Origin: Marivirga tractuosa DSM 4126 | GTDB lineage: Bacteria; Bacteroidota; Bacteroidia; Cytophagales; Cyclobacteriaceae | DNA length: 64,000 nucleotides | Assembly (NCBI RefSeq): GCF_000183425.1 | Contig: NC_014759.1 | Span: 4,269,001-4,333,000 of the forward strand | Direction of reading: 5' to 3' | Shown: positions 22,064 through 27,210 of the stretch, piece after piece | Layout of the letters: each line of letters begins with the position of its first letter | Position numbering within the stretch: the stretch's first letter is position 1 | The notes under the pieces: generated by a model | Database searches by the model: none | What the model was told of the DNA's origin: nothing | The model's input: the letters and a program-made list of their open reading frames with translations, nothing else | Program-made: the position numbers and the translations under genes

Positions 22064-23017
22064 TTAAAATATCCCCTCCGCAATTCTATAAATCGGATCA
22101 GATTTTCCCATAGAATAATAATGCAAGCAAGGAGCTCCAAACTCAATTAGCTTTTTTGATTGTTGAATACACCATTCTATTCCCACTTCTTTAGCAGCAG
22201 CATTATCTTTGCATTTTTCTAGTTCATCCACTAAGGCATCAGGCAGGTCTAGGTAGAAGGTTCTTGGTAATGCTGTCATCTGCTTTAAAGAGGTGATAGG
22301 CTTCAATCCAGGAATTATAGGAACATCAATGCCTTCTGCTCTACATAATTTTACAAATTCAAAATACTTTTGATTATCAAAAAACATCTGTGTCACCACA
22401 TATTCCGCTCCTCTTTCTACTTTCTGTTTTAATATTTTTAAATCAGATTTCATGCTAGGAGCTTCGAAATGCTTTTCTGGATATCCTGCCACGCCAATAC
22501 AAAAATCAGTTGGAGTAGCAGATTGTAATTCTTCGTCTATGTACCGACCATTGTTCATATCTACTACTTGTTCCATTAGATCTATCGCATAAGCATGTCC
22601 ATTAGGATCTGGGACAAATTTATTTTCTGATTTGATGGGGTCCCCACGTAAAACCAGAACAGAATCTATTCCAAGGAAGTCGAGATCTATTAGAGCATTT
22701 TCTGTTTCCTCTTTGCTGAAGCCTCCGCAAATAATATGCGGTACTGTGTCGATATCAAATCTATTCTTAATGGCTGCACAAATCCCGACTGTTCCTGGAC
22801 GCTTTCGAGTAGTTCTTTTTTCTAATAAACCGTTCCCTTTATCTCTGTATACATATTCTTCCCTATGATAAGTGACATCAATAAAAGGTGGCTTAAATTC
22901 CATCAGGGGTTCAATATTCTCAAATAGTGCTTTAATATTTTGCCCTTTCAATGGAGGTAATATCTCAAAAGAGAAGACGGTGCTTTTTGCGTTATTTATG
23001 TGTTCAGTTACTTTCAT
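22064..23017 (-). CDS. metF: Methylenetetrahydrofolate reductase
   Basis: A 317-residue flavoprotein that reduces 5,10-methylene-THF to 5-methyl-THF, the methyl donor used by MetH. The barrel motifs are clear: FSFEILPPLKG at the N-terminus (catalytic Glu), PPFIDVTYHREEY, TVPHIICGGFSKEETENAL, VLVLRGDP (flavin site), and AEYVVTQMFFDNQKYFEF. Length fits the roughly 300-residue bacterial enzyme. It lies 74 bases downstream of metH in the same direction, with a short 10-bp inverted repeat in the gap and a strong terminator after it, so it should share the SAM-riboswitch-controlled transcript. Confidence 0.95.
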   Translation of the reverse strand: MKVTEHINNAKSTVFSFEILPPLKGQNIKALFENIEPLMEFKPPFIDVTYHREEYVYRDKGNGLLEKRTTRKRPGTVGICAAIKNRFDIDTVPHIICGGFSKEETENALIDLDFLGIDSVLVLRGDPIKSENKFVPDPNGHAYAIDLMEQVVDMNNGRYIDEELQSATPTDFCIGVAGYPEKHFEAPSMKSDLKILKQKVERGAEYVVTQMFFDNQKYFEFVKLCRAEGIDVPIIPGLKPITSLKQMTALPRTFYLDLPDALVDELEKCKDNAAAKEVGIEWCIQQSKKLIEFGAPCLHYYSMGKSDPIYRIAEGIF

Positions 23018-23091: not shown

Positions 23092-26000
23092 TTAATAATT
23101 CAAATTAGGCTTTAACCACCTCTCGATTTCCTTGTATTCTTGATTTTTTCGCTTGGCTATGTCTTCTACCTGATCTTTACCGATTTTGCCAAGACCAAAG
23201 TAGCGACTTTCAGGGTGACCGAAATAGAATCCGCTAACTGAGGCTGTTGGCAGCATGGCTAGGTTTTCAGTAAGCATGATGCCTGTGTTCTTTTCTACAT
23301 CCAATAATTCAAATAAAGTAATCTTTTCAGTATGGTCAGGGCAACCAGGATAACCTGGAGCCGGTCTGATTCCTTTATATTGTTCTTTTATCAAGCTTTC
23401 GTTATCTAATGCCTCATCTTTAGCATAACCCCAGTATTCAGTTCTTACCTTTTTGTGCAAGAGTTCTGCAAATGCTTCTGCTAAGCGATCAGCTAATGCC
23501 TTTGCCATGATGCTGTTATAATCATCATGATCGGCTTCGTATTTTGCTGTCAATTTATCCAAGCCAATTCCAGTCGTCACGGCAAAACAGCCCATGTAAT
23601 CGGTGTAATCTGCCTCAGATGGTGCTAGGAAGTCAGAAAAAGCATAATTCGGGTTCTTTTCACCTTTCTTATTTTGCTGACGTAGCGTATGGAATTCAGT
23701 AAGCTTTTGGGTTTTGTCTGTATCACCAAATACTTCTATACTATCATGATTTTTAGTGTGCGCAGGATAAAGTCCGAAGATAGCATTTGCTGTTAGTAGC
23801 TTTTGATCTATGATTTCTTGCAACATCTGTTGCGCATCAGCAAAAAGTTTTCTTGCTTCTTGCCCTTTTTCAGCATCATCCAAAATTTTAGGATAGCGGC
23901 CTTTCATTTCCCAGGTCTGGAAAAAAGGTGTCCAGTCAATGTATTCTGCTATTTCCTTTAAATCATAATCAAGCAAAACCTCACTTCCGATTTTTTGAGG
24001 AGCATGAGGTCGATGGTTATTCCAGTCAATTTGGTATTTATTAGCCCTTGCTTCTTCTATGCTTACATAATTTTTAGCTTCACCTCTTTTGCCATGGCCT
24101 GCTTTTGCTTCTGCATATTCTCTTTCGATTTCTTTATAAAATTCCTCTTTATCTTTTCCTAGTAGCTTACCAGCAACAGTTACAGAGCGAGAGGCATCAT
24201 TCACATGAATCACTGGTCCACTATAATTCGGTTTGATTTTCACAGCTGTATGAATACGCGAGGTAGTAGCACCCCCAATCATCACCGGTGTTTTAAGTCC
24301 TCTTTTTTCCATTTCTTCTACGACATAAATCATCTCATCAAGGGAAGGTGTAATCAGTCCGCTTAAGCCAATGATATCGACTTGATTTTTTTCAGCTTCC
24401 TCCAAGATCTTTTGAAGGGGCACCATCACGCCTAAATCAATAATTTCATAGTTATTACAGGCCAAAACCACAGAAACGATGTTTTTGCCTATATCGTGGA
24501 CATCGCCTTTGACGGTAGCCATTAATATTTTTCCTTTGCCAGATCGCTCTTGTACAGGTTCTTCCGCCCCCAAAGGCCCCCCAGCCCCCAAAGGGGGAGT
24601 GCTGAGTGCTTCTAAGATTTTTTTTAGGACAATATCTAACTGGGTTATTACTTCAGAATTGGTAAAGCGGATTACTTTATAGCCTTGTTCCTCTAGCCAT
24701 TTTGTTCTTTCTTCATCATTGGCTTTATTTTCTGGTAATTGATGGATTAGTCCATCTATTTCAATTATTAGTTTTGCTTTTAAACAAATAAAATCAGTGA
24801 TATAGCCTCCAATTATGTGTTGTCTTCTAAACTTATATCCTTCAAGCTGTTTTCCTTTTAACGCATCCCATAGGACTAATTCGGCATGAGTAGGATGATC
24901 ATGCCTCATTTGTTTTGCAAAATCTTTCATCAAACCGTAAAGTATCGGGTCAGCAGTCTGCCAGTGCTGAGCACTATCAGCCCCCTTTGGGGGATAGGGG
25001 GCTTTTGGGCTGTTTTTTTTCTTTTCTGCTTCAATGTAAGGCAGTAAGATAGCCACAGCCTTCTTCATAACTCTAGCACTTTTCACCACTTGTGGTAGAA
25101 ACATTTTCCCTGATCCAAATAGATCGCCCACTACATTCATGCCGTCCATTAATGGGCCTTCGATTACATCTAGAGGACGTTCGGCTTGGAGTCTGCTTTC
25201 TTCAGTATCCTCTTCTATATATTCTGTAATACCTTTAATTAAGGCATGTTCTAATCTTTTATTGACTGGTAAATTTCTCCATTCTTGAGTAGCCTTCTCT
25301 GCTTTCTCACCTGGCTTTATATTTTCAGCATAGGCCATTAATCTTTCCGTAGCGTCAGCTCTTTTATTGAAGAGCAAATCCTCTACGTAATCCAAAAGTT
25401 CTTTGTCTATTTCATCATAAACCTCCAACATTCCAGGATTGACTATGCCCATATCTAAACCTGCTTTAATGGCATGATAAAGAAAAGCAGAATGCATGGC
25501 TTCTCTGACGGTATTATTCCCACGAAAAGAAAAGGAAATATTGCTGACTCCACCACTGGTTTTGGCGTAAGGAAGATTTTCTTTTATCCACTGAACGGCA
25601 TTGATGAAGTCAACAGCATAATTATTATGCTCTTCCATTCCCGTACCTATTGTCAGGATGTTCGGGTCAAAAATGATGTCCTCAGGAGGGAATTCTGCTT
25701 TATTCACTAATAGATCATAGCATCGTTTGCAGACTGCGATTTTTCTATCAAAAGTATCGGCTTGACCTGTTTCATCAAAAGCCATGACTACCACTGAGGC
25801 ACCATAACTTTTAATCTTTTTGGCTTTGGCTATAAAATCTTCTTCACCTTCCTTTAAACTGATGGAGTTGACAATTCCTTTTCCTTGCAAGCATTTTAAT
25901 CCTGCTTCAATTACTTCCCATTTGGAAGAATCAATCATGAAAGGAAGTCGTGCAATATCCGGTTCTGAGGAAATAAGATTTACAAAGTTAGGTAAAACTT

Positions 26001-27210
26001 TGACAGCATCAAGCATGCCGTCATCCATATTAATATCGATAATCTGTGCTCCACCTTCTACTTGATCAATGGCGATGTCTACAGCTTCTTCAAACTTTTC
26101 TTCACGGATTAGTCTTGCAAATTTCTTAGAGCCCGAAACATTGGTTCTTTCTCCTATATTCACAAAATTGATCTCTGGAGTAACCGATAAAGGCTCTAAG
26201 CCGCTTAATCGCATTATTTTCTTTTGTGCCGCAATTTTATGAGGCTGAGATTTGGCAGCATATTCTGCTATGGCCTTGATGTGTTCTGGTTGAGTACCGC
26301 AGCAGCCGCCTATGATGTTGACCAAGCCTTCATCAAAATAGCTTTTGATAATGCTGCTCATTTCTGAGGGACTTTCATCATATTCCCCAAATTCATTGGG
26401 CAATCCTGCATTTGGATGGCATGAAATGGCCACATCGGAAATTCTGGCCAATTGCTGCAAATACGTTTTGAGCTGATCAGCACCTAAAGCGCAGTTAAAG
26501 CCAACACTTAGCAAAGGGAAATGACGGATACTATTCCAGAATGCTCCAACTGTTTGTCCGGAAAGCGTTCTTCCACTCGCATCTGTTATAGTACCTGAAA
26601 CCATCACAGGGATTTCGATACCTTTCTCTTCTTTTAGTTCTTGAATAGCCATCAATGCAGATTTACAATTCAAGGTATCAAAAACAGTTTCTACCAAAAA
26701 TATATCTACTCCACCTACAGCCAATGCTTCCGCTTGTAGTTTATAGGCTATTTTTAATTCATCAAAAGAAGTGGCTCTGAATCCGGGACGATTTACATCA
26801 GGGGATAAAGAAGCAGTTTTATTGGTGGGACCAATTGAACCTGCTACAAACCTAGGTTTGTCAGCATATTCCTCAGTTACTTCTTTGGCAATTTTGGCTG
26901 ATTGCTCATTTAGTTCCCAAACCAAATCCTGCATGTCATAATCTGCCATTGCAATAGTTGTCCCACTAAAAGTATTGGTTTCAATGATATCAGCACCGGC
27001 ATCAAGATACGCTCTGTGTATATCTTTAATGATTTTAGGCTGGGTTAAGGACAATAAATCATTGTTGCCTTTCAAATCTGATGGATAATCCGCAAAACGA
27101 TCTCCACGGTAATCGGCTTCTGTGAGTTTATAGTTCTGAATCATAGTGCCCATAGCACCATCCAATACTAAAATCCTGTCTTTTAAAATATCTTTTGAAA
27201 ATCGACTCAT
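23092..27210 (-). CDS. metH: Cobalamin-dependent methionine synthase with in-frame DUF559 insert
   Basis: A 1,372-residue enzyme that transfers the methyl group of 5-methyl-THF to homocysteine via cobalamin. Order: homocysteine-binding barrel (about 1-320, with the zinc Cys pair in [10 protein letters not shown]), pterin-binding barrel (about 345-620, [15 protein letters not shown]), cap helices (about 640-733, [21 protein letters not shown]), cobalamin domain with the ligand His905 in DVHDIGKN, and the AdoMet activation domain (about 1040-1372, [12 protein letters not shown]). E. coli MetH has 1,227 residues; removing residues 734 to about 888 leaves about 1,220. The extra block is a DUF559 endonuclease-like domain placed exactly in the linker between cap and cobalamin domains. 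A SAM-I riboswitch lies upstream and metF downstream. Confidence 0.95.
24566..24609. repeat. Terminal inverted repeat, one end of the metH insert
   Basis: GC-rich end of the DUF559 element: a CCCCCAAAGG unit, then a CCCCCAAAGGGGG palindrome, then AGTGCTGAGTGC. Its base composition is very unlike the AT-rich surroundings. The mate is at 24964-25010. Confidence 0.75.
24964..25010. repeat. Terminal inverted repeat, other end of the metH insert
   Basis: Inverted mate of 24566-24609: GTGCTGAGCACT, a CCCCCTTTGGGGG palindrome, then ATAGGGGGC and TTTTGGGC. The two ends align as reverse complements with a few mismatches and a short gap. Confidence 0.75.

Follow-up and report, generated by a model that had tools for sequence, protein, structure and literature searches.

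A nuclease domain bounded by hairpin repeats and read through in the methionine synthase of Marivirga tractuosa: probably a homing-type element without splicing

Why does the methionine synthase of Marivirga tractuosa DSM 4126 carry a complete nuclease domain in the middle of its polypeptide, and how did it come to be there? The gene, metH, lies in a stretch of 64,000 nucleotides (hereafter, the window; contig NC_014759.1 of assembly GCF_000183425.1, positions 4,269,001–4,333,000, with coordinates below counted from its first letter) of a 4.52 Mb genome on two contigs. A sequence-only reading of the window had described the nuclease as a DUF559 domain sitting in frame in metH, mobile, tolerated at the protein level, and distinct from inteins and introns. 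The explanation that we prefer, with a probability of roughly three in four, is that the insert is a homing-type nuclease element that does not splice but is translated through and tolerated by its host. It draws on sequence comparison, i.e., on the in-frame anatomy, an intact active site, filled and empty alleles, the many hosts and sites, the discordance of insert and host, and the lack of a splicing signature.

The host gene encodes cobalamin-dependent methionine synthase (23092..27210, minus strand; by its open frame, Pfam, and metH models), and its reading frame is uninterrupted from 27210 to 23092, with the insert read through in a product of 1372 amino acids. The Pfam order along this protein (S-methyl_trans, Pterin_bind, B12-binding_2 [residues 650–722], DUF559, B12-binding [893–982], Met_synt_B12) places the insert in the linker ahead of the cobalamin domain. 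The DUF559 match (PF04480, a Vsr-like PD-(D/E)XK nuclease domain; residues 762–869, 24604..24927, minus strand) covers profile positions 4–108 of 109 (E-value 2.9e-35; 120.9 bits against a cut-off of 20.6), and the best piece of the match to the metH models TIGR02082 and PRK09490, which is broken in two, ends at residues 733–735. An N-terminal extension of 14 residues (749–762; 24925..24966, minus strand) is of the type found in housekeeping-gene copies. Five residues (E777, D806, E817, D819, and H823), which we take to be catalytic from the earlier assignment and from general knowledge of the family, are invariant in all 94 aligned in-frame copies and retained in 62 to 64 of the 64 other copies. 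When the DUF559 profile was compared to the Protein Data Bank (PDB), it matched chain 3r3p, named 'Mobile intron protein' (E-value 2.4e-7; profile 53–124), presumably I-Bth0305I, the type member of the EDxHD homing endonucleases.

Both ends of the insert are hairpins. In gene sense, the 5' end (24981..25002, minus strand) comprises the outer arm GCCCCC (24997–25002) and the hairpin CCCCCAAAGGGGG (24981–24993), translated as PYPPKGA, and the 3' end (24566..24597, minus strand; 11 residues translated) comprises the hairpin CCCCCTTTGGGGG (24585–24597) followed by GGGGGGCCTTTGGGGGC (24566–24582). The stems pair CCCCC with GGGGG around AAA in the first hairpin and TTT in the second, and because hairpins and outer arms (GCCCCC left, GGGGGGC right) mirror each other, the two ends are mutually inverted repeats, with a palindrome-bounded unit of about 24566–25002 between the outer arms. 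As single-stranded DNA, the gene strand of the insert folds with a z-score of -5.8 (0 of 100 shuffles as good). The sequence-only reading had drawn the insert at residues 734–884 (24559..25011, minus strand), a block that MetH lacks in three of ten genomes of the genus; its complete domain in the linker, its conversion of residues to bases, its naming of the five residues, its stop-free frame, and its GC-rich inverted repeats translated as PPKGA-type and 13-residue peptides all held up.

A comparison with relatives, proposed at the time as a check, revealed empty alleles both in the genus and in Flavobacterium. In the genus, the insert occupies the MetH site in seven of ten genomes (176–190 residues between two motifs, the second motif being one of two alternatives), and the site is empty in the other three (32–42 residues); ten displayed MetH from outside the genus were all empty (33–46 residues). 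In Flavobacterium, where a MetH match at E ≤1e-150 was present in 110 of 121 genomes, the linker site is filled in 12 of the 110 (11 complete, and one, G546, that starts at a contig end but has the domain), and 21 inspected loci are empty, the remaining MetH being judged from match pieces alone or not listed. The nearest relatives of one filled Flavobacterium allele (G379) are empty, although their flanking DNA is 92% and 89% identical to that of the filled allele, whose sequence is IDAQKRPPAPEGGV...APPSGAGGAGKILIATV; about eight linker codons were therefore replaced. Another Flavobacterium (G508) has an empty linker and an insert in the activation domain instead, after GIFPANQINDDDIE, a place where G492 has none. 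Leucyl-tRNA synthetase (LeuRS) carries an insert in only one (G002, between AELDFEVVKN and NDLKIKVFTTR) of the nine genomes of the genus that have the site on one contig, G001 being left out with its gene split between contigs. The empty linkers of MetH in G005 and G009 (L042 and L043) contain CCGCCCAGGGGGGC, possibly, though unproven, the excision scar of a lost insert. A suspected LeuRS insert in G003 was rejected, as the alignment shows not a DUF559 insert but a segment right before the KMSKS motif (L171; pieces L162 and L172) that diverges from eight congeners and is perhaps recombinant. A contig labelled Candidatus Nitrotoga (L204) holds an insert-bearing MetH of Flavobacterium type, perhaps through a binning error.

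Judged by silent sites, the insert appears younger than its host in some pairs of genomes. M. tractuosa (G000) and its congener G003 have identical codons at 102 of 111 positions of the domain (0.92) and at 650 of 1034 elsewhere (0.63; p-value 2e-11), with a maximum of 0.79 in 1004 equal windows elsewhere, and identity is raised for about 90 codons upstream and about 60 downstream. The domain is likewise more codon-identical in four other pairs (G000–G006, G000–G007, G003–G006, and G006–G007; p-value <1e-3), compared with 0.48 in the domain versus 0.47 elsewhere in the control pair G000–G002. In RecG, the pair G141–G344 reaches 0.98 in the domain versus at most 0.88 elsewhere. Among 11 filled Flavobacterium MetH, host and insert identities are uncorrelated (r 0.14, 55 pairs); here, as in the silent-site groups and in the hairpin, 3'-stop, and start-codon counts below, named-scan loci with two copies were omitted. 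From this silent-site similarity and these discordant identities, we infer spread to insert-free alleles. As expected of a homing element, one and the same site is filled in some genomes and empty in others, and the insert apparently spreads horizontally, both in the genus and in Flavobacterium.

The mechanism that we propose involves an element of about 0.45 kbp, in which a Vsr-like (DUF559) endonuclease frame, free of stops in the frame used, lies between hairpin inverted repeats. In the MetH linker it would be translated as part of MetH without splicing, and the host enzyme would stay active. The nuclease, presumably active while tethered in MetH, would cut or nick insert-free alleles, and repair from the insert-bearing allele would copy the element in. 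In a rarer step, the element may reach a new gene, perhaps via its palindromic ends, a movement read from the domain tree. This tree (158 copies, including every third MetH-linker copy from the protein search and omitting copies of <85 amino acids) has few columns and many unresolved forks. It sets most housekeeping-gene in-frame copies apart from the free-standing and most of the restriction-modification and tail copies (support 100/98), the exceptions on the housekeeping side being a free-standing copy (L006) and a type ISP copy (L143). Neighbours across genes include LeuRS with IcmF (99/85), UvrD within a LeuRS group (98/80), MetH-linker with MetH activation-domain copies (P0002 and P0111; 100/95), and, in the same genome, UvrD with a GATase_5 frame (100/70); such adjacency of different-gene copies from one lineage points to jumps between genes.

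The range of hosts is wide. A protein search with residues 745–890 at MetH-like lengths found 955 proteins, and the 120 listed have MetH domains in 118 cases and methionyl-tRNA synthetase (MetRS) domains in two (Pfam column), the listed MetH containing one, two, or three copies in the linker, at two places in the C-terminal part, or in the N-terminal part. A second search found 1110 proteins, with 120 listed that overlap the first listing in part; many entries are RecG, and further hosts appear by Pfam accessions that we take to be MiaB, CCA-adding enzyme, LplA/biotin ligase, UDP-glucose dehydrogenase, Ham1, and IspG. Together, the two listings contain 238 proteins with 261 copies (more than one copy in 22 proteins), of which 250 are internal (>90 residues before, >60 after) and 247 have the DF...ExDGxxH motif. 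Among the matches listed, the closest named inserts are those of Marivirga.

At the genome level, DUF559 was detected at E ≤1e-15 in 162 of 395 Bacteroidota genomes, with at least 49 matches in frames of at least 300 amino acids. Sixty loci were fetched, and most of their protein kinds were scanned with Pfam (by our own profile, L149 lacks the domain and L148 is weak). Their hosts include LeuRS at no fewer than three places, UvrD at two, an IcmF-like mutase, RecG, HsdM, HsdR, type ISP and Eco57I-type restriction-modification proteins, N6/N4 methylases, an MmeI-like methylase, and an M23 peptidase, and tail copies occur on coproporphyrinogen oxidase, HemD, HisA, QueG, RNase H, N-formylglutamate amidohydrolase, and a GATase_5 protein. 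When named genomes were scanned using 21 in-frame domains, at least 578 relatives were recovered; the best 80 loci contain 82 copies, of which 63 lie in frames of 250 amino acids or more (MetH: 29; MetRS: 6; LeuRS: 2; others: 26) and 19 in short frames. Fifteen of the 26 others were scanned with Pfam: IleRS, ValRS (two), UvrA at two places, chorismate synthase, an Aldedh-MaoC protein, adenine deaminase, UDP-GlcNAc 2-epimerase, DegT aminotransferase (two), NAD epimerase, an IspF (YgbB) tail, and L245, in which DUF559 is the only domain. The remaining 11 share, by eye, the pre-domain motif of one IleRS (L246). In-frame DUF559 with the same kind of ends thus occurs in nearly thirty unrelated Bacteroidota protein families. 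The exclusively in-frame subfamily that a first tree had suggested was dropped in view of the 19 short-frame copies, 17 of which are in records named Prevotellaceae, Prevotella, Hallella, or Bacteroidaceae and two in other Bacteroidales; close relatives are thus also free-standing in gut Bacteroidales.

Could the insert be an ordinary domain fusion, inherited vertically and kept for a benefit to the host or an added DNA-repair function? Such a fusion would fit the conservation of the domain and its active site, the one linker site at which the listed MetH copies mostly lie, the wide occurrence of free-standing DUF559 proteins, and some close pairs that look vertical, such as L274–L276 in Flavobacterium (host 0.90, domain 0.88). 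It is nevertheless unlikely, given the patchy presence within genera, the discordant identities of insert and host with differing silent sites, the occupation of several sites in one protein and of many unrelated proteins, and the hairpins that match at both ends.

These hairpins are part of an architecture shared by many in-frame copies, which consists of an outer arm (e.g., GCCTCACCCC), a short spacer, a hairpin (e.g., CCCCTCTCC-AAA-GGAGAGGGG), the nuclease, and then the same parts in mirrored order. Hairpins with stems of at least 6 bp in 160-base flanks, a test that does not count five-base stems like those of the window, were found on both sides of 62 of 124 in-frame copies and on one side of 24, with none in windows 1.1 kbp away; for copies in frames of <250 amino acids, the numbers were 21 and 17 of 48, with one in the control. 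These and the 3'-stop counts exclude copies lying within 160 bases of a locus end, and control windows were taken only in loci long enough. The stems vary between elements and agree within one (mismatch 0.172 vs. 0.355 when shuffled, 0 of 2000 as low; 62 elements), and both ends are read in all three phases. Short peptide repeats just ahead of the domain in two loci (L144:3282-7364, VPEGGGGLNKNQ; L146:3519-5555, EWTAKQDGVEKM) look as if end sequences had been multiplied.

The same ends also occur alone. A genome search for them, likewise proposed with the sequence-only reading, located CCCCCNNNGGGGG at 24 places (0 for the reversed control pattern), two of which bound this insert. Of 15 palindrome loci checked in this genome, 13 have no frame of at least 120 amino acids over the site, and in the other two (L177 and L181) a frame ends in residues encoded by the hairpin. 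By eye, solitary hairpins like TTCCCCCTTTGGGGGTTAGGGGGCT appear near gene ends (L173–L187, G000:C2). Inverted pairs of the same hairpin 114–144 bp apart, with no room for DUF559, were seen in congeners (G009:C1:1588806/1588928, G003:C11:213509/213653, G001:C338:1682/1817, G007:C88:52048/52184, and G007:C100:18784/18898) and are candidate non-autonomous derivatives resembling miniature inverted-repeat transposable elements (MITEs).

Such solitary palindromes and short pairs, together with a Y1_Tnp match in nine of the ten genomes of the genus, would also suit a passive palindromic element (of MITE, repetitive extragenic palindrome [REP], or Rickettsia palindromic element [RPE] type) that is moved by another transposase and has DUF559 as mere cargo. 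Mere cargo is hard to reconcile with the active site retained in all 94 aligned in-frame copies, however, and palindromes are more frequent in genomes with DUF559. A longer palindrome pattern is present at least twice in 50 of 162 DUF559-positive genomes vs. 14 of 233 DUF559-negative ones (Fisher's test: p-value 6e-11, uncorrected for kinship). Counting each insert's own ends, the insert-bearing genomes of the genus contain 24, 24, 28, 11, 11, 8, and 2 sites and the empty ones 5, 1, and 2, and G004, the richest in Y1_Tnp matches (eight), has five sites. We therefore regard passive movement as improbable.

Does the insert remove itself? No intein model (Pfam, NCBIfam) matched at an E-value of 0.05 in this MetH or in an IleRS and a LeuRS with inserts, whereas a positive control in the same scan, a Vibrio phage helicase (L299), matched TIGR01443, with PF14890 in Pfam; no Rfam family matched at E ≤1 in 24300–25300. 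An intein was therefore rejected for want of a match to splicing-motif models and an RNA intron for want of an Rfam match. An atypical intein or RNA intron that removes itself would recall inteins in its conserved blocks on either side, same-site recurrence, and patchy distribution, but these null results and the avoidance of stops over the 3' end (4 of 103 copies with a 3' hairpin in the frame used vs. 28 and 42 in the other two) make it highly unlikely. The sequence-only reading had seen no splicing motif and had proposed a mobile domain that is neither intein nor intron; the first claim agrees with these scans, and the second gains support from the empty alleles and from the many unrelated genes in which the domain has similar ends.

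Several results weigh against a homing-type element. Close relatives on phages or plasmids were not seen (best identities 41%, 51%, and 49%, plus one short 56% segment), and no DNA-recognition module was recognised in the insert, for which Pfam lists, host domains aside, DUF559 and its relative MTES_1575. Of the 124 in-frame copies, 62 lack a hairpin pair at stems of at least 6 bp, and inspection by eye of the MetH (G379) and LeuRS (G002) junctions, where the linkers are too diverged, revealed no target-site duplication. The silent-site signal is uneven: three pairs with G001 reach only a p-value of 0.04, G006–G007 is narrow (0.78 vs. 0.74) with upstream flanks not raised, and raised flanks are clear in G000–G003 only, of three pairs chosen for significance. 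The pair G002–G006 shows nothing (0.52 vs. 0.47); because neither it nor G000–G002 shows an excess, the domain is not simply frozen in its codon use. Across 13 host-site groups, eight pairs are up (7 of 666 in MetH and one in RecG) and none down at a p-value <1e-3, 11 groups have no such pair, with most pairs saturated, and MetH pairs overall lean slightly upward (530 of 666). Ordinary recombination could be the source of such tracts.

The MetE model TIGR01371 found no match in this genome and one in just one of the ten genus genomes (G007, whose assembly is fragmented); M. tractuosa has one MetH match. Given the missing MetE, the insert-bearing MetH is probably a working enzyme and apparently the sole methionine synthase. 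Between G000 and G003, both filled, the ratio of nonsynonymous to synonymous substitution rates (dN/dS) is 0.02–0.04 in the MetH flanks and 0.24 in the insert (0.04–0.14 for the insert in other pairs with an estimate); purifying selection on the host MetH is strong. The possibility that an internal start allows the nuclease to be translated separately was considered and rejected, as no ATG occupies a fixed place ahead of the domain. Among 102 in-frame copies (hosts of at least 600 amino acids), 64 have an ATG between 40 codons before and 15 into the domain, 26 have an internal Met codon at a distance of six codons inside the domain, and 13 lack ATG, GTG, and TTG throughout the region. Shine-Dalgarno sequences were counted in 4 of the 102, a number of little weight beside the 5 of 51 among short-frame copies. 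As the copies show no conserved start, the nuclease is probably made only as part of the host protein.

In the literature surveyed, mainly by title and abstract and with few subscription papers, we found no description of in-frame DUF559 elements. The nearest known kinds, going by the excerpts cited here, are two precedents for homing without splicing, the ShiLan domain (PMC11855218) and the WHO elements and HO of yeasts (PMC7282813). ShiLan is described as a horizontally spreading insertion in actinobacteriophage DNA methylase genes, for which host tolerance was proposed; like our insert, it interrupts a coding gene, is open in the host frame, and is identifiable as neither intein nor intron (PMC11855218). 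It differs in that its HNH endonuclease lies out of the host frame in a phage methylase, whereas the element studied here has a Vsr-like nuclease in frame, hairpin inverted repeats, and many bacterial host genes. A lone LAGLIDADG insertion in the same phage methylase is described as apparently vertical (PMC11855218). WHO elements replace the 3' end of FBA1, whereas the insert in metH is internal and read through (PMC7282813). With the EDxHD homing endonucleases (I-Bth0305I; PMC3943268) the insert shares its sequence relation to 3r3p, but in contrast to them, as characterised there, it has little besides the nuclease domain. RPEs are similarly palindromic and in frame in unrelated protein genes, but their length is about 150 bp and their product a short conserved peptide, with no nuclease mentioned in the excerpts of PMC10969869 and PMC3733652; defined as short palindromic units without a nuclease, they do not cover an insert with an entire nuclease domain. 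VsrA of Caulobacter, a DUF559 protein needed in vivo for the DNA-damage response when a cytosine methyltransferase is missing, belongs to the same family but is presented as a free-standing chromosomal protein, its mobility not being part of the account excerpted (PMC12907096). What appears new is a probable homing-type element with a novel mode of toleration and palindromic ends.

More tentatively, and with somewhat less than even confidence, the hairpin-bounded nuclease cassette may represent another vehicle for homing endonucleases, in addition to introns, inteins, and stand-alone genes, which would have colonised nearly thirty Bacteroidota families, essential ones included, and whose nuclease may spread solitary hairpins in trans. 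Mobile elements in essential genes are generally held to require a splicing device. A cassette of this kind would need none, since its ends can be translated as a linker peptide and loops accommodate its fold. The dispersed genomic palindromes would then be its non-autonomous offspring, and aminoacyl-tRNA synthetases, UvrA, RecG, and an apparently sole MetH seem to be permanent carriers of an intact nuclease domain. If this is true, the cassette would offer a natural system for tolerated domain insertion and a testable case of homing without splicing, explain misleading names such as 'DUF559 domain-containing protein' for MetH or RecG, and provide a candidate source of dispersed GC-rich palindromes.

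Three minor observations concern other nucleases and the neighbourhood of metH. An HsdR frame (L112:3675-7691) carries, in addition to a DUF559 insert (443–547), a GIY-YIG domain (251–316), a different nuclease type. In Vibrio phage 159E43-1b (OZ196825.1), a RadD-like 'DNA helicase' (L299:2085-4613) contains an intein (PF14890 at 135–423; TIGR01443 at 402–424), inside which an open reading frame of 209 amino acids in another frame on the same strand (L299:2701-3330) encodes a remote DUF559/Vsr-like nuclease (31% identity), apparently an out-of-frame endonuclease hidden within the intein. Directly after metH in the window, on the same strand, lies a gene (22064–23017, 317 amino acids) that by eye resembles methylenetetrahydrofolate reductase.

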